Below are positions 16,578-24,635 of a DNA stretch of 64,000 nt, piece by piece (the first letter of the stretch is position 1; each line of letters opens with the position of its first letter). The position numbers were made by a program, and so were the translations under genes. This DNA comes from Halalkalicoccus sp. CG83 (GTDB lineage: Archaea; Halobacteriota; Halobacteria; Halobacteriales; Halalkalicoccaceae), in contig NZ_JAZDDH010000003.1 in assembly GCF_037081715.1 (NCBI RefSeq), forward strand, positions 62,001 to 126,000, read 5' to 3'. A model generated the notes under the pieces. That model was given only the letters and a program-made list of their open reading frames with translations. It was not told the DNA's origin and did not search any database.

Positions 16578-17774
16578 TCAAGCAGATTGGCAAGCCTCAA
16601 CAACGATCTCCGGATCATCGACGAGCTCGTTTACAGTGTGAGCACCCTTTCCTTTGCCTCGTCCCTTTCGCTCTTGTTCAATAAGCGAGAGAAATGCAAG
16701 TTCGGAGAGGAGATCGCGAACTCGGCGCATCTTCAGCGGTTCAGCACCTTCACGTTCACAGACGATTTGGTAGGCAGAATGAATTTGTTTCGAGGGGATC
16801 ATCGGTTCATCCTCGGAGGATTCCTGCATTCGAAGGGCAAGTGCCAGCATTAGGTACTTCGAGTGTGTCGGCTGTTTTGAGATGAGCTCCGAAAGTCGAG
16901 CCTGTTCTTCACGGTCATGCGCCTCATCAACGTACTCGATACTGACGGTATCGTCACCGTGTTCGTCAGCGATCTCACCAGCGTAGCGAAGAATATCGAT
17001 TGCTTTGCGAGCATCACCATGTTCGCGAGCAGCAAGTGCTGCGACCTTTGGGATCACGTCTTCATTAAGGACGTCTTCACGGAATGCGTCCGCACGCGAC
17101 TGGAGGATCGCCTGGAGTTGGGAAGCATCGTAGGGAGGGAACACGAAGTCACGCTCGGAAAGGCTCGATTTTACGCGTTCGTTCAATGTCTCCTTGTAGC
17201 GAATCTTGTTGCTGATGCCGATAATCCCGAGCGTGGAATCATCGACTTTGCCCGCCTCTGCTGCACGCGAAAGCTGCATCAGAACGTTATCATCTTCGAG
17301 TTTATCGATTTCGTCAAGAATGATAATTCCCACATCGAGGCGAGCATCGAGAATTTTCCAGAGCCGCCGGTAGTAATCAGAGGTACTCACTCCGGAGTGT
17401 GGAACGGTCGTCTCCGTCTCCTCGGGATCGTTAAGCGATTCGGCGATGGTCCGAACTGTCTGTGTCTCAGTCGACTCTTGAAAACAATCAACGTACGCGA
17501 TGGCGACTTTCACACCGTTTTCGGCGGCGGCATCAGCGAGATCACGTGTGATATACTTTGAACAGAGGCTCTTCCCGGTTCCCGTCTTCCCATAAATTAG
17601 AACGTTGTTCGGTGTTCCGCCCCGTTGTGCATCCTTGATCGCCTTAGCGAGACTTCGGAGTTCGTCGTCCCGACCAATGATTCGGTCACCTTCAGGAAGG
17701 TGACTAACGCGGAGGAGCTCCTTGTCGGCGAAGATCGGATCAGGATCGCCAAAGAATGATTTCGATCCACTCAT
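16578..17774 (-). CDS. orc1: Orc1/Cdc6 replication initiator
   Basis: 398-aa AAA+ initiator. Walker A YGKTGTGKS at residues 61-69, Walker B IIILDEIDKL at 150-159, sensor 1 around GIIGISNKIRY, and a C-terminal winged helix from about 305 (QPTHSKYLMLALALRMQ to the basic GRGKGKGAHT) that contacts origin boxes. All ATPase motifs are intact. The gene is transcribed away from the box clusters at 17818-18417, the classical layout of an archaeal origin with its cognate initiator. Start ATG 17774 gives the standard N-terminus with ADKELLRVSHLP. Confidence 0.95.
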   Translation of the reverse strand: MSGSKSFFGDPDPIFADKELLRVSHLPEGDRIIGRDDELRSLAKAIKDAQRGGTPNNVLIYGKTGTGKSLCSKYITRDLADAAAENGVKVAIAYVDCFQESTETQTVRTIAESLNDPEETETTVPHSGVSTSDYYRRLWKILDARLDVGIIILDEIDKLEDDNVLMQLSRAAEAGKVDDSTLGIIGISNKIRYKETLNERVKSSLSERDFVFPPYDASQLQAILQSRADAFREDVLNEDVIPKVAALAAREHGDARKAIDILRYAGEIADEHGDDTVSIEYVDEAHDREEQARLSELISKQPTHSKYLMLALALRMQESSEDEPMIPSKQIHSAYQIVCEREGAEPLKMRRVRDLLSELAFLSLIEQERKGRGKGKGAHTVNELVDDPEIVVEACQSA

Positions 17775-17817: not shown

Positions 17818-18417
17818 CAATGCCGCTGTAAGGGATGTCATGAATTAGGATGAAGAACGAAAACACCACTTTCAGAGGATGTGAGGCGTGGTTATTAGCG
17901 GTTCATCGATTTCGGACCCCTCATTGCCGCTGTAAAGAGGGGACACACCCACCCCGGATTGCCGCTGTAAAGAGTCGAGGTAGAACCCCACTCGAAATCA
18001 AGCTCGAAGAGGAGATGAGAGGGAACAAGTGAGCCGATCTTCCCATAGAACCGATGATCCAGCTAGAGAGTAAACCCTTCCTTCGACTCTTCGGCGGCAA
18101 AAGCAACTGCCGCCTCAGTACGCCAAAAGTGCAGTACGGTAACAAACGACTCCGACCGTCATAAGCCTATGGGTGGATATCAGCTAGATGACTTCTATAG
18201 GAGATTTCCTTAATCGCAACTTTCGGGAAACGTCCGGGAGTTTTACAGCGGCAATCCGGGGTGGGAGCATCCATCTCGGAGTCTCTTCATCTCTTCTGAA
18301 GCAGATCACGTTTACAGCGGCAACACGGGGTCAACCGATGCTTCGAATCAAGTGTCTCATATCGTAAGCGCGGATTCCTCCATCTACGCCGAAATTTACA
18401 GCGGCAATCCGGGGTGG
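17818..18417. other. oriC: Replication origin with inverted clusters of origin recognition boxes
   Basis: Upstream of orc1, three boxes in one orientation (partial 17818-17832; 17916-17936; 17948-17971, CCCCGGATTGCCGCTGTAAA) face three in the other (18241-18265, 18310-18334, 18395-18417, TTTACAGCGGCAATCCGGGG). The G-rich end of each strong box points away from the central 270-bp interval 17972-18240, the likely unwinding region. This arrangement with a cognate orc1 is typical of haloarchaeal origins. Confidence 0.88.
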
Positions 18418-18459
18418 TAGACCGACTTCCGGTTTACTACTTCGATCCCGTTCTCGGAA

Positions 18460-19967: not shown

Positions 19968-20411
19968 CAGAGGATCGGGCCCAGGAACTATCTTACATTG
20001 GCATTACAGTATGAGAGACAATACGATGGAGCTGCTGAAGGATCACAGTTGCGACTCCTGGGTACCGACTCCGTAGCCACCGCCCCCGTAGCCACCGCAG
20101 AAATTGAGGTCGCTTCTCTCGTAATTTGGGGTTGTTCCTCTTCTTCACCAGTAGAAGCGGTTACTGTGGCCTCGGTGAGTTGACGCGCAAGACATCTACT
20201 TGCGATTCTCTAAGCGGTGCGATCGAACTCCTCTATGGACTCTCTGTGAATCCTTTATGAGACGTAGTGTCTGAAATACCGATTCGACCATTTCGCGCCG
20301 ATTACGAGTATCTCGTCGATTGTCGACCGACTTCCTACTAGTACCTGTTCGGAACTTTCGGAAAGACCCCAGTATCGTTTATTACCCTTCATTCGCAATC
20401 CATTCTGCAAT

Positions 20412-21440
20412 GTGATCACGGACGCTCGAGTGTTTCAAGATACGTTCGTCCCTGAAGAGGTCGTTCACCGCAATACGGAACTCACACACCTCTCCGGGGT
20501 CCTTGCGCCTGTTCTGCATGGAGAGCCTGCTGAAACGGCCGCTATTTTCGGACCGACGGGTGTCGGGAAAACCTGCTGTGCTCGCTACGCTGTCGAACAG
20601 CTTCGCGAGAACTCATTCAACGTTCGGACTCAGTACGTCAACTGCTGGCAGGACTACAACCGATATCGGGTGCTCTATCGGCTTCTCGAAGGACTCGATC
20701 GAACGCTCGACATCCATCGGCAATCAACGCCCCGCGATGTTCTCTATGATCGCATTCGCGAGGCGAACGACGATCCCTACGTCGTCGTCCTTGATGAGGT
20801 CGACCAACTCGAAGAAAAAGACGTCCTCTATGATCTCTACACACTATCTCACATATCTCTGATTCTCATTGCAAACGACGAGCAGGAGTTTTACTCGAAC
20901 CTCGGCGATCGCCTCTACAGTCGGCTCACCGGCAGCGAGAGGGTCCAATTCGATCCATACTCTCTCGATGAAATCGTTGCCATTCTCGATGCGAGAGCCA
21001 ATTCGGGGCTTGCAAACGGGGTTGTTTCGCCCGCGCAGATGGAACTGATAGCTGACCGAGCTGCTGGGGACGCTCGCGTTGCAATCGGAATTCTCCGAAC
21101 GGCCGCTCGCAAAGCTCATCGCGACGGCACTGGGTGTCTCACCACTGAAATCATCGAAGCGGCGGTTCCCGATACTCGCTCGGAGCTTCGACAGAAAACG
21201 ATCGAACAGCTCTCGCATGATCAACAGATGCTCTACGAGATCATCGAAGAACATGGGGAGACGACACCGGGGACACTCTACGAAGCGTACGAACAGCGCT
21301 GTGACGATCCAAAGTCTAGACGGAGCGTTCGGAACTACCTGGGGAAGATGGAACACTACCATCTGATCGATGCCGAGGGCGAAAAGCGAGCCCGGGTCTA
21401 CCGACTTTCGGAAAGCGCTTTCGGAGCCCAGAATTCCTAA
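20412..21440 (+). CDS. Divergent Orc1/Cdc6-like AAA+ protein
   Basis: 342-aa Orc1/Cdc6 homologue. Walker A GPTGVGKT at 47-54, Walker B VVVLDEVDQL at about 124-133, sensor region SLILIANDEQEF, sensor 2 area GDARVAIGILRTAARKA, and a C-terminal winged helix LSHDQQMLYEIIEEHGETTPGTLYEAYEQR. It is shorter than the origin-linked Orc1, with a reduced N-terminus. The start is GTG 20412, since the overlapping ATG runs at once into a stop. No origin boxes were found around it. Instead it heads a set with the RecA-like, small and polymerase genes, so it may load or regulate that polymerase rather than fire an origin. Confidence 0.88.
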   Translation: MITDARVFQDTFVPEEVVHRNTELTHLSGVLAPVLHGEPAETAAIFGPTGVGKTCCARYAVEQLRENSFNVRTQYVNCWQDYNRYRVLYRLLEGLDRTLDIHRQSTPRDVLYDRIREANDDPYVVVLDEVDQLEEKDVLYDLYTLSHISLILIANDEQEFYSNLGDRLYSRLTGSERVQFDPYSLDEIVAILDARANSGLANGVVSPAQMELIADRAAGDARVAIGILRTAARKAHRDGTGCLTTEIIEAAVPDTRSELRQKTIEQLSHDQQMLYEIIEEHGETTPGTLYEAYEQRCDDPKSRRSVRNYLGKMEHYHLIDAEGEKRARVYRLSESAFGAQNS

Positions 21441-21548
21441 TCCGAAAATCGACTGACGACAGCGACGTCAGACGAGAAACAGTCTCTTTTCGGCAGTATC
21501 GGTACTGACACGCCTTCACTTATTCCAGTTGTGATACATGATCTTGCC

Positions 21549-22238
21549 ATGGAATCCCATCGACCGAACCGCATTCCGGAATTACCCTCGCTGTCAGGCG
21601 GGGTACATCTGCTCGAAAGCGAGTCCGTTCGCGGTCCATTACAGACGCTCGTACTGGATCACGTCCTCACCAATCGTGGACCAGCCTATTGGATCGACAC
21701 CCACGGCCATGCGACAACCCAACCACTTGCCCGACTCGCACCGGATCCACAGGTACTCGATCGAATTCGCGTTGCTCGTGGGTTCACTACCGTTCAGCAC
21801 TACGCTCTCACTGAAACGCTCGCCACTGTCGTTGATGGCACTGCCTCGCTGATCGTCTGTCCGGCGGTCGACGGCTTGTATCGCGACGATGGATTTCGAG
21901 AGGACGAACGCCAGGCGATGCTCGTCCGGGTTCTCGCAATGGTGTCGGCGTTGGCTCGGGAGTACGATCTTCCAGTGGTGCTCACGCGAACTCAGGGGGA
22001 TGCGTTCTCTGAGCCCGTGGCCAACGCTGCCGGAGACGTCATCGAGTGCGAACAGACACGCATGGGACCACGATTCTGTAGCAGCACGTTTGAAACGCTC
22101 GTTTACCCACTCGGGAACGGGCAAGTTCAGACGACACTTTCCTTCTGGGAGCGGATACTGAAGGCACGACAACCGGTCTATGACACCGCTCAGATCGGCC
22201 CGCAGTCTCCGGAGGTGCCTGCCGATGGGACGTACTAA
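21549..22238 (+). CDS. RecA/RadA-superfamily protein without a P-loop
   Basis: 229 aa. The pattern follows the RecA core: LSGGVHLLESESVRGPLQTLVLDHVL sits where Walker A and the next helix should be, but Gly-Lys-Thr is replaced; AYWIDTHGHAT corresponds to strand 2, RIRVARGFTTVQHYAL to the RadB-like segment, and ASLIVCPAVDGLYRDD to Walker B. It should therefore not hydrolyse ATP in the normal way. The gene overlaps the next by 14 nt. An inactive RecA relative beside an error-prone-type polymerase recalls bacterial ImuA with ImuB/DnaE2; this parallel is inference. ATG 21549 is chosen over an in-frame GTG at 21531. Confidence 0.7.
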   Translation: MESHRPNRIPELPSLSGGVHLLESESVRGPLQTLVLDHVLTNRGPAYWIDTHGHATTQPLARLAPDPQVLDRIRVARGFTTVQHYALTETLATVVDGTASLIVCPAVDGLYRDDGFREDERQAMLVRVLAMVSALAREYDLPVVLTRTQGDAFSEPVANAAGDVIECEQTRMGPRFCSSTFETLVYPLGNGQVQTTLSFWERILKARQPVYDTAQIGPQSPEVPADGTY

Positions 22239-22506
22239 TCCGACCTATCGCGACGTTCTACGAGCACTCGACGATCAGTGGTCGGACTATCGACGAGGGC
22301 TTCGCCGGGAGGATCAACAGCGCTTCGATCAGCTCTTTGCGTATATTCGCGCCCATGCCGATGCTAGTGGCTATCTCAATCATACGGAACCGTTCTACCC
22401 GGCGTTAGTATCGATCGACCTCGAACAGGAGACGCGTCTTGACGAGCTTGAAAGTCGACTTGAGCAGTTAGAAAACGAGACTGACCCATCCAACGATGGG
22501 GAGTGA
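22225..22506 (+). CDS. Small coiled-coil protein of the polymerase operon
   Basis: 93 aa from ATG 22225 (MGRTNPTYRDVLRALDDQW). It is helical and charged, with a distinctive centre FDQLFAYIRAHADASGYLNH and a C-terminal heptad-like segment LDELESRLEQLENE. I recall this as a conserved haloarchaeal family that travels with PolB2-type genes. It overlaps both neighbours (14 nt upstream; the downstream GTG start would overlap by 4 nt), so the three proteins are translated together and probably form a complex. Likely an adaptor. Confidence 0.65.
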   Translation: MGRTNPTYRDVLRALDDQWSDYRRGLRREDQQRFDQLFAYIRAHADASGYLNHTEPFYPALVSIDLEQETRLDELESRLEQLENETDPSNDGE

Positions 22507-22514
22507 CAAGGGCG

Positions 22515-24635
22515 ATGGTCTATAAGATCGACTTCCTCGAGGATGTCTATGAGTGGTCGATCACTCCCGACGGTGCTAGCTACGAGCGAGTGACCGACTA
22601 CACGCCGACGATTTACGTGACGTATGATGGTCGAGCGGACGATGGACCTCCCGATCTTCGAGAACGCCTTGAGGACTATCCGACAGTGGTTTCGATGGGA
22701 ACCGAACGCTGGCGTCGGGGCTTTCGCCACGAGCATGAACCCGTCCTTCGGATCGATGTCAGAGGGCTTGATGCTGTCCGCTCGCTTGCCTCCAGGATTC
22801 GTCGGCTCGGCCAGCCGGGTGAGTACAAACTCTACAACGTGGACCTCTCACGGGAGTTTCGCTACTGCTTAGAACGTGGCTGTGATCCCACACCGACCCG
22901 TGTCCCCTCGGCGCTCTCGATCGATGTTGAACCACCCGCACTCGCGGACCCACCGATCACTGAGATCACGATCGATGAGGAGACCGTGACGGGCTCACCG
23001 GCGGCAGTACTGTACGCGATTCAGCGACGACTTCGGCAGCGTGACCCGGATGTTCTGGTACTCTCCTCGGGTGAGCTCATTCCGAGACTCTCTGAAATGG
23101 CCGACCAGCACAATGTCAACCTCCGGCTCGGACGACGGTCGGGCTGGCAGCGACTTGCTGGGCGTTCGACCTACGAGAGTTATGGCAGTGTTGGGCACTC
23201 CCCGGCTCGATATAACGTTCCGGGCCGGGTGATTATCGATCGCTCGAACACGTTCTTTCACTCCCAGTCAGGGTTGGATGGCTGTCTGGATATGGTCCGT
23301 CGGTCGGGGAAACCACTCCAGGAACTCGGGTGGGCGTCGATCGGAAACGTTCTGACCGCGATTCAGATTCGGGAAGCTCGAGATCGGGAAGTGTTAGTGC
23401 CGTGGAACTCGTGGCGCCACGAGTTTTTCAAGCAACTCTCGACGTTACACGATGCCGACCGAGGCGGGTACACGTTTGCCCCGGAGGTCGGCTTTCACGA
23501 GGACGTCCATGAGCTCGATTTCTCTTCGTTGTACCCGAACATCATCTGCCAGTTCAACGTGAGCCCTGAGACGATCCGGTGTGACTGTCACGCCGATCGA
23601 GCAGACGTGCCCGGCGTGGGGTATTCCGTTTGTGATGACCGTGGGTATCTCCCGGATGTGTTACAGCCGTTGATCGACGCCCGTGATGCGATGAAACAAG
23701 AGATTCGAGAGATCGACGATCCGGAGCGAATAGCGGCGTTGAAATCCCGATCAAACGCAATCAAGTGGATTCTGGTGAGCTGTTTCGGTTATCAGGGATT
23801 CAGTAACGCGAAGTTCGGTCGCATCGAGTGTCACGAAGCGATCAACGCTTATGCTCGCGAGATTCTGCTCGACACCAAAGAGACGTTCGAGGCGAACGGG
23901 TGGCATCTCTTGCATGGAATCGTCGATAGCCTCTGGGTGACTGCGATTGACGACCAGGAACAAACACCGCTCGAAGAGCTTGCGGGGACGATTACGAAGC
24001 AGGTGGGAATCCGTCTCGAATACGAATCGGCCTTCGAATGGCTTGCACTCGTTCCGTTGCGTGATGGCGATGAGGGTGCACTCACGAAGTACTTCGGCAA
24101 AGTAGCTCGTGAGGACACCGAGCACGAGCCGGCGTACAAGTACCGCGGCCTCGAGTGTCGTCAGCGTTCGACCCCAGACTGGATCATGAGTGCCCAACAG
24201 GAATTAATCGAGACGTTGGATCAGTACCGTTCACCAACTGCCGTCTGTACACGTCTCCAACGACAGCTCGCGGAACTTCGCTCCGGGCAGGTCGATCCAC
24301 AGGCGCTTGCAATTGACAACCGTGCTTCGAAGCACGTCGAGGAGTATACGTACGCTACACGAACGGTCGCCGCGCTCAAGCGGGCCCGAGATGGTGGACT
24401 CGATCTGCAACCCGGGCAGAACGTTTCATACGTAGTGATCGACGACTCGAAGCGCTCCCGGGATCGTGTCCAACTCGCTCATGAATCGCCCGAACGGTAC
24501 GACGCCGAATTTTATGCTGACCTGTTGATCCGCGCTGCCGAAAGCGTCTGCTCACCGCTTGGATGGCGACGGGCGGATATCGAGACGTACCTTTCGGAGC
24601 ATCGAGATAGCACATTAGCTGCCTTTCATCCGTAG
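22515..24635 (+). CDS. polB2: Family B DNA polymerase (PolB2-like), exonuclease-dead
   Basis: 706 aa, shorter than the roughly 800-900 aa of replicative archaeal PolB. Motif A DFSSLYPNII at about 335-344 and motif B KSRSNAIKWILVSCFGYQG from about 410 are good. Motif C reads HGIVDS (467-472) instead of YGDTDS: the first Asp is lost and the second, a metal ligand in characterised enzymes, is kept. The exonuclease region (SALSIDVEPPALADPP, DPDVLVLSSGELIPRL) lacks the Exo I Asp-x-Glu and Exo II Asn/Asp residues. It may therefore polymerise without proofreading, or be structural. ATG 22515 matches the expected N-terminus; GTG 22503 would overlap the previous stop by 4 nt. Confidence 0.85.
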   Translation: MVYKIDFLEDVYEWSITPDGASYERVTDYTPTIYVTYDGRADDGPPDLRERLEDYPTVVSMGTERWRRGFRHEHEPVLRIDVRGLDAVRSLASRIRRLGQPGEYKLYNVDLSREFRYCLERGCDPTPTRVPSALSIDVEPPALADPPITEITIDEETVTGSPAAVLYAIQRRLRQRDPDVLVLSSGELIPRLSEMADQHNVNLRLGRRSGWQRLAGRSTYESYGSVGHSPARYNVPGRVIIDRSNTFFHSQSGLDGCLDMVRRSGKPLQELGWASIGNVLTAIQIREARDREVLVPWNSWRHEFFKQLSTLHDADRGGYTFAPEVGFHEDVHELDFSSLYPNIICQFNVSPETIRCDCHADRADVPGVGYSVCDDRGYLPDVLQPLIDARDAMKQEIREIDDPERIAALKSRSNAIKWILVSCFGYQGFSNAKFGRIECHEAINAYAREILLDTKETFEANGWHLLHGIVDSLWVTAIDDQEQTPLEELAGTITKQVGIRLEYESAFEWLALVPLRDGDEGALTKYFGKVAREDTEHEPAYKYRGLECRQRSTPDWIMSAQQELIETLDQYRSPTAVCTRLQRQLAELRSGQVDPQALAIDNRASKHVEEYTYATRTVAALKRARDGGLDLQPGQNVSYVVIDDSKRSRDRVQLAHESPERYDAEFYADLLIRAAESVCSPLGWRRADIETYLSEHRDSTLAAFHP

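Follow-up and report, generated by a model that had tools for sequence, protein, structure and literature searches.

The DNA studied here is a 64,000-nt window inside a 257,742-bp haloarchaeal contig, in a genome of 3.64 Mb as a whole. At 20412-24635 of the window, four open reading frames (ORFs) stand in a row on the forward strand, namely orc, iRadA, PPB2 and PolB2 (Table 1). Our subject is this cassette together with a 20-bp box that is found in two of its promoters. A first-pass annotation of the same DNA had described the row correctly and had taken three of the genes to overlap. This holds for iRadA and PPB2, which share 14 nt. The 4-nt overlap of PPB2 with PolB2 exists only if PolB2 begins at GTG 22503, and the PolB2 of Halalkalicoccus jeotgali in RefSeq begins 12 nt further downstream than the equivalent of this codon; orc and iRadA do not overlap. 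The start of iRadA is most likely ATG 21549 (229 aa) rather than GTG 21531, because in two congeners the GTG is followed by a stop after three codons and RefSeq annotates the orthologue with 229 aa.

Table 1. Positions of the cassette genes, promoter elements and nearby features in the window. PWM, position weight matrix; ORB, origin recognition box.
Feature	Position	Strand	Description
orc	20412..21440	+	Orc/Cdc6-family AAA+, arORC2-like, 342 aa, GTG start; TIGR02928, Cdc6_lid
iRadA	21549..22238	+	RadA/Rad51 homologue without ATPase residues, 229 aa; Pfam Rad51
PPB2	22225..22506	+	arCOG07300-like, 93 aa, MGRT N-terminus, helical
PolB2	22503..24635	+	family B polymerase; NF004418 1173 bits; possible true start ATG 22515
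Box 1 CGGAACTTTCGGAAAGACCC	20350..20369	+	upstream of orc; begins 62 nt before GTG; PWM 20.9 bits
orc TATA-like element TTTATTA	20378..20384	+	same place in relatives
Box 2 CGGCAGTATCGGTACTGACA	21491..21510	+	upstream of iRadA; begins 58 nt before ATG 21549; PWM 15.7 bits
iRadA TATA-like element ACTTATT	21518..21524	+	iRadA promoter
Second palindrome copy CTTTCGGAAAG	21405..21415	+	inside the 3' end of orc
Other Orc1/Cdc6	16578..17774	-	initiator type, 398 aa; TIGR02928 417 bits; adjoins the ORB cluster
ORB-like inverted repeat cluster TTTACAGCGGCAATCCGGGGTGG	17818..18420		repeat families D1-D3, I1-I6; outside the cassette

Papers are cited below by PubMed Central (PMC) number. The set iRadA-PPB2-PolB2 is the PolB2 mutasome, which Makarova 2014 and Timinskas 2025 described as an operon with orc1/cdc6 neighbours and modelled as a pentamer (PMC4104785, PMC11791011). 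The window holds a further member of it, so the mutasome analogy drawn in the first-pass annotation was right and already in print. For comparison we fetched 80 haloarchaeal PolB2 loci as stretches of about 3.8 kb. They were the best-scoring ones and then a hand-picked spread from the PolB2 match list, so the set leans to intact cassettes. A PolB2 match (E 1e-20) occurs in 264 of the 391 genomes of the class and in three of the six genomes of the genus. The three mutasome genes are adjacent on one strand in the window; among the fetched loci iRadA is present in 76/80 and PPB2 in 77/80, not always contiguously.

The products agree with what had been read from the sequence at first. For iRadA, the match to Pfam Rad51 scores 27.6 bits (cut-off 22), its profile finds RadA in the PDB at E 4e-11, and its AlphaFold model (predicted local distance difference test score 83) has the Rad51/RadA core fold, with RAD51/RadA chains matched by Foldseek at E about 1e-11. 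The P-loop region is degenerate in the aligned relatives. The protein thus has the RadA/Rad51 fold without the N-terminal domain and without the ATPase residues, as in the iRadA family, and its description as a RecA-superfamily protein that had lost its P-loop was accurate. PPB2 is indeed a protein of 93 aa with a predicted helical model. GRT follows directly on the start residue in 74 of the 78 aligned proteins. Pfam and domain searches gave no match to it, and a comparison with PDB folds that sought a likeness to the N-terminal part of sigma factors gave a best Z of 3.7, with no clear match among 46 chains. In PHROGs it matched phrog_30126 (3e-23). Virus protein families cover both PPB2, through this family, and the window's Orc (phrog_7998); a PPB2-like protein (28%) is encoded by Leptospira phages, and Orc relatives (29-39%) by haloviruses.

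In PolB2, the motif A Asp, the motif B Lys and a motif C that reads HGIVDS in place of DTD are invariant in 80/80 loci. The first Asp of motif C is substituted while the second is kept, along with the motif A Asp, as is usual for the family. Exo I has Asp in 17/80 and Glu in 4/80, and the Tyr/Asp of Exo III are replaced by conserved T/Q. Judged by these residues, the view that the proofreading exonuclease is inactivated holds, and with it the original call of an exonuclease-dead family B polymerase. Some mutasome members have a PCNA-binding motif in iRadA or PolB2; a strict pattern for it matched 0/81 PolB2 and 0/77 iRadA proteins. At the very C-terminus of PolB2 lies a conserved tail SLxAF/Y (window about 24600-24632; L/I in 76/80, F/Y in 76/80), which resembles a shortened PCNA-binding motif. 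A search of the genome contigs with PolB2 returned no match. The role of PolB2 as an error-prone extender in translesion synthesis is putative. It draws on work with the Sulfolobus enzyme Dpo2, which is active and whose translesion studies are summarised in PMC11791011, and on the catalytic residues conserved here.

The fourth product was correctly taken for an Orc1-like AAA+ protein. It matches TIGR02928 at 194 bits, over the cut-off, and its Walker A and B motifs are intact; the Walker A Lys and the Walker B Asp-Glu are present in 86/86 aligned orthologues. Its winged helix has invariant basic residues, and the two arginines of an RxR in the wing occur in 73/86 and 84/86. An orthologue of at least 44% identity was found in 46/53 polB2-positive and 5/20 polB2-negative genomes (Fisher p 1e-6), and genomes without an orc near polB2 usually have the orthologue elsewhere. 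The linkage of orc1/cdc6 to polB2 has been published with two readings, a replication-related role (Makarova 2014) and a regulator of the damage response comparable to Sulfolobus Orc1-2 (Timinskas 2025). The first-pass annotation had named independent occurrence of the members as something that would speak against a complex of the four. This was found in part: orc is in some cases unlinked or present without polB2, and on the PolB2 side iRadA and PPB2 are both missing within the fetched 3.8 kb in 3/80 loci.

A tandem box before orc and iRadA

A short palindrome near iRadA repeats one in the orc promoter, and at other loci it recurs almost only upstream of orc and iRadA. We collected 112 upstream regions from 81 loci (77 of iRadA and 35 of orc, the latter included only where the start had been captured). 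A de novo motif search by expectation maximisation, seeded or unseeded, gave one dominant element, CGGAA-N4-CGGAA(A)CGAC. This is a direct repeat of 9 bp, and the palindrome is just one form that the repeat can take; the simpler definition as the palindrome TTTCGGAAA was rejected. At a threshold of 13 bits the box is present in 91 of the 112 regions (61 iRadA, 30 orc). Its geometry is narrow: an in-frame start codon lies 55-66 nt after the start of the box in 89/91 boxed regions (60/61 for iRadA), most often at exactly 58, and a TATA-like stretch lies about 25-30 nt after the same point. The box thus sits just upstream of the TATA element and ends near the BRE (transcription factor B recognition element) and TATA, which fits leaderless promoters.

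As the same 112 regions trained the matrix, the honest rates are the cross-validated ones. A matrix from the far half boxed 47/63 regions of the near half (shuffles 0.6%, polymerase coding sequence 0%), and one from the near half boxed 18/49 of the far half (shuffles 0.4%, polymerase coding sequence 1.25%). At other ORF starts, 13-bit matches occur at 0/56 in the window and at 5/589 in the other loci, and two of these five are split polB2 genes.

Within the window, four matches exceed 13 bits on the two strands together; Box 1 is the best of them and Box 2 the second best. Box 1 holds the single copy of GAANTWYCGGAAA in the 3.64 Mb genome. From the same box geometry before both genes we conclude that orc and iRadA-PPB2-PolB2 are probably two co-regulated transcription units rather than one four-gene operon, with read-through possible. 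The second palindrome copy has a counterpart, TTTCGGAAA, at the matching place in the orc genes of two congeners (L033, L034) and is not kept elsewhere. A large regulon in the window's own genome was considered and rejected, given 21 exact CGGAAN4CGGAA sites against 16 for the reversed-pattern control; of the other sites, the best two are found in antisense orientation within a speB-like gene and close to the 3' ends of genes.

The box goes with orc. We examined 29 orc-family loci (L152-L180) taken from whole-genome matches in genomes whose polB2 has no orc close to it, one of whose boxed members (L153) belonged to the training set, and 13 of them have the box at -57 to -64. None of 20 promoters of initiator-type orc genes reaches 12 bits. 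Three orc genes from genomes that lack polB2 keep the box as well: L324, L325 and L331, the last of which is a broken copy. The distance from the box to the iRadA start is 58 nt on the plasmids pJ7-1 (Natrinema J7-2), pHS1 (Halobacterium salinarum R1) and pNG600 (Haloarcula marismortui). On pNG600 a gene stands between PPB2 and polB2, and a further box precedes this detached polB2 at 58 nt. Among the 80 loci and the window, 2/11 split polB2 genes have a 13-bit box of their own, compared with 0/70 adjacent ones; a looser pattern gives 4/11 against 2/70 (p 0.003). This weakly suggests that split polB2 genes gain their own box. By eye, the direct repeats in the promoters of four orc-family paralogues (L172, L328, L329, L163) are spaced at about 10 bp rather than 9 bp, which suggests a family of related boxes.

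We did not find the box reported in the open-licence PMC literature searched, and the portions covered of Makarova 2014 and Timinskas 2025 give no shared promoter element (PMC4104785, PMC11791011). Within that literature, the finding of a box common to both units, which hints at an autoregulator of the Orc type, appears to be new. The sole ultraviolet-response motif for haloarchaea that we found in print is TTTCACTTTCA, from Halobacterium radA1 (PMC2556686). It was rejected as an identity for the box, the sequence being different.

Candidate readers of the box

We observe directly the genes, the polymerase residues that are kept, the box with its fixed geometry, the presence of the box in both units and the fact that it goes with orc and not with polB2. 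These findings are best read, by analogy with Sulfolobus Orc1-2 and LexA, with Orc as a damage-linked autoregulator that has its own box rather than as a subunit of the mutasome. Orc would then be the putative reader of the box and a putative activator, with DNA damage as the putative signal. We consider it probable, on the sequence and on this analogy, that the locus is a two-unit, self-regulated translesion cassette for which binding by Orc and induction are predicted. One unit would be the leaderless orc gene and the other iRadA-PPB2-PolB2, with the same tandem box in both promoters. Orc, no longer a replication initiator, would bind the tandem half-sites of its own and the mutasome promoter through its winged helix, as an ATP-dependent oligomer. 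Upon DNA damage it would recruit the basal factors, the iRadA-PPB2-PolB2 complex would be made, and its exonuclease-less polymerase would extend past lesions with mutations.

If one changing protein reads both boxes, the two should resemble each other within a genome, and they do. Across 42 genomes, 13.9 of 20 positions are identical between the orc box and the iRadA box of the same genome, compared with 12.7 under permutation, and 0/20,000 permutations were as high, a p-value that is too small because related genomes share ancestry and are not independent. Moreover, 13 unlinked pairs were hand-chosen, and the comparison covers genomes with a visible iRadA box (G260, G012 and G142, for example, fall outside it).

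The limited value of this p-value is one of several points that weigh against Orc as the regulator. Among the 29 orc-family promoters, 14 score below 8 bits at the expected place, mostly those of lower-identity paralogues (in several of the 14 the variant TTTCCGGAAACGACCC is visible by eye), and two more reach only 8.1 bits, at -58. The orc promoter of genome G053 has no box. In G260 the orc orthologue is boxed and iRadA is not. Box 2 is a degenerate copy. SRAP (SOS response-associated peptidase), a published PolB2 neighbour, has the box at 0/10 distinct promoters. The element is not the Sulfolobus DNA damage-responsive element, an identity that we rejected since ANTTTC occurs in only 12/91 boxes. 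Finally, the upstream, activator-like position of the box is only suggestive of activation.

The alternative that survives best, though we would give it a distinctly smaller chance, is that another transcription factor reads the box and Orc is merely co-regulated, perhaps as a loader or remodeller of the mutasome. Orc is, after all, a reader predicted from sequence, LexA adjoins PolB2 in some bacteria (PMC4104785), and boxes also precede mobile-element genes. This account has to face the boxes at orc in genomes without polB2, the conserved basic residues of the Orc winged helix, and the lack of an iRadA box in G142 and G135, whose best Orc has 32% identity.

A role for Orc as replication initiator is improbable. 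On that account the box would be a small ORB-like origin element and the cassette a piece of a mobile replicon that PolB2 helps to replicate, much as the first-pass annotation had thought of a plasmid-replication complex. The Orc1/Cdc6 family membership would suit it, as would the core CGGAAAC, which recurs within a haloarchaeal ORB-like element (PMC3528665), the many plasmids with PolB2 (103 records) and the transposases that flank orc13-polB2 of Hfx. volcanii (PMC2841640). However, each promoter has a single box at a fixed distance to TATA and start, also before iRadA with no orc near, and the 20 initiator promoters lack it. The replicon moreover has its own ORB cluster, which belongs to the other orc and has six repeat copies in two orientations with G-strings, upstream of that initiator-type gene and 2 kb from the cassette. 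This cluster is likely the replication origin of the replicon, and it weakens the plasmid-replication reading. No inverted ORB array with a G-string was found at the mutasome-linked orc; the statement that this orc lacks origin boxes therefore stands as far as such an array is concerned, and needs amending for the one conserved promoter box.

We regard two further explanations as very improbable. Haloarchaeal BREs are GAAA-like, and the box, which contains GAAA and ends near BRE/TATA, could be an ordinary core-promoter element of this kind that implies no co-regulation, were it not so scarce at other ORF starts and were its extended exact form not found at 61 sites in 391 genomes (many of them GC-rich chance sites) compared with one for the reversed control. 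Decay of the cassette, with a dead polymerase hitchhiking on plasmids, would suit the patchy distribution in class and genus and the early term inactivated for PolB2 (PMC4104785), and it is at odds with the invariant residues of motifs A, B and C, the conserved promoter geometry and the activity of Sulfolobus Dpo2 (PMC11791011).

Other genes with the box

The exact sites just counted match CGGAAN4CGGAAACGAC. Where the middle is AT-rich, a TATA and a start at about 58 tend to follow; where it is GC-rich, they do not. We fetched 20 exact sites, and in four of them (L261, L262, L268, L273) iRadA is the next gene. The remaining ones include sites before a 184-aa protein, a PadR regulator and a 584-aa protein, as well as tyrosine-integrase cassettes. 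Five loci (L263, L265, L266, L272, L280) have the box, a TATA-like stretch and, at 58-65 nt, the start codon of genes that do not belong to the mutasome: that of the 584-aa protein (no Pfam match over the cut-off), those of the 184-aa and a 106-aa protein (no Pfam match), and that of the PadR regulator. In L273 an iRadA-PPB2 pair has its own box, and the fetched stretch gave no PolB2 match.

Of 30 integrase loci, five (L294, L296, L298, L320, L321) have the box, the TATA and a common leader, two of the five having prompted the search. Three further tyrosine-integrase cassettes (L264, L267, L270) likewise have the box and a TATA. In all eight the leader is CCGACGGACAGCAG, conserved and placed about 66 nt from where the box begins; it may be a leader RNA. 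A 20.9-bit box with an ATG 58 nt downstream also lies in a stretch upstream of an integrase (L312). Three named plasmids (L336, L337, L338) carry an SRAP gene that lies upstream of iRadA and on the other strand; two of them also have DUF262 genes close by.

The strict box is found in no IMG/VR contig, and its carriage by viruses was rejected. A looser pattern matched 13 contigs there; these look like chance matches, because a suitably spaced ORF start is present in one of them and cassette genes are absent from all. The orc of LSV-48N has no box.

A wider reading, which we hold only tentatively, is that of an SOS-like haloarchaeal system. The former initiator arORC2 would act as its master switch, controlling itself and the mutasome through the tandem CGGAA box, which keeps a constant spacing to leaderless promoters. 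Integrases, PadR regulators and other mobile genes would have hijacked this protein by setting the box before promoters of their own, as prophages use LexA.

Comparison with known systems

The closest system in print is the PolB2 mutasome itself, which has the same three proteins in the order iRadA-PPB2-PolB2, an orc1/cdc6 neighbour, a lost first Asp of DxD, a dead exonuclease and the MGRT arm. It differs from the present locus in that orc and the operon look here like two box-controlled units. We know of no account of how haloarchaea switch on translesion synthesis, and a 20-bp box at a fixed distance to TATA and start, common to orc and the mutasome, makes the question of regulation directly testable.

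With haloarchaeal ORBs the box shares, in some families, a GGAAAC-type core beside an orc/cdc6 gene. Unlike them, it is a single promoter box of direct repeats, with no inverted array and no G-string.

The LexA-linked bacterial PolB2 and the ImuA-ImuB-DnaE2 cassettes likewise place a regulator gene or a degenerate RecA relative beside a damage polymerase, although the regulator is unrelated. ImuB and DnaE2 belong to polymerase families unrelated to PolB2. The polymerase of the present set is of family B, neither a Y-family ImuB nor a C-family DnaE2, which sets it apart from the Imu cassettes.

The nearest parallel for the proposed regulator is Sulfolobus Orc1-2, an Orc that is not an initiator and binds damage-response promoters as well as its own, with specific binding given by the wing pair R381/R383 and favoured by ATP (PMC9738581). 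Our protein is similarly an Orc/Cdc6 with intact AAA+ and winged-helix parts that is apparently not an initiator, and the promoters of its gene and of the PolB2 unit both have the box. By contrast, the half-sites are tandem CGGAA repeats, the family is the euryarchaeal arORC2-like one and the gene belongs to an accessory cassette; with ANTTTC rare in the boxes, the DNA element differs from the Sulfolobus one. If Orc reads the box, a replication initiator would have become a damage regulator in Crenarchaeota as well as in haloarchaea, each with a DNA element of its own. Orc proteins would then serve as the archaeal counterpart of LexA, a use that would be either convergent or deeply shared.

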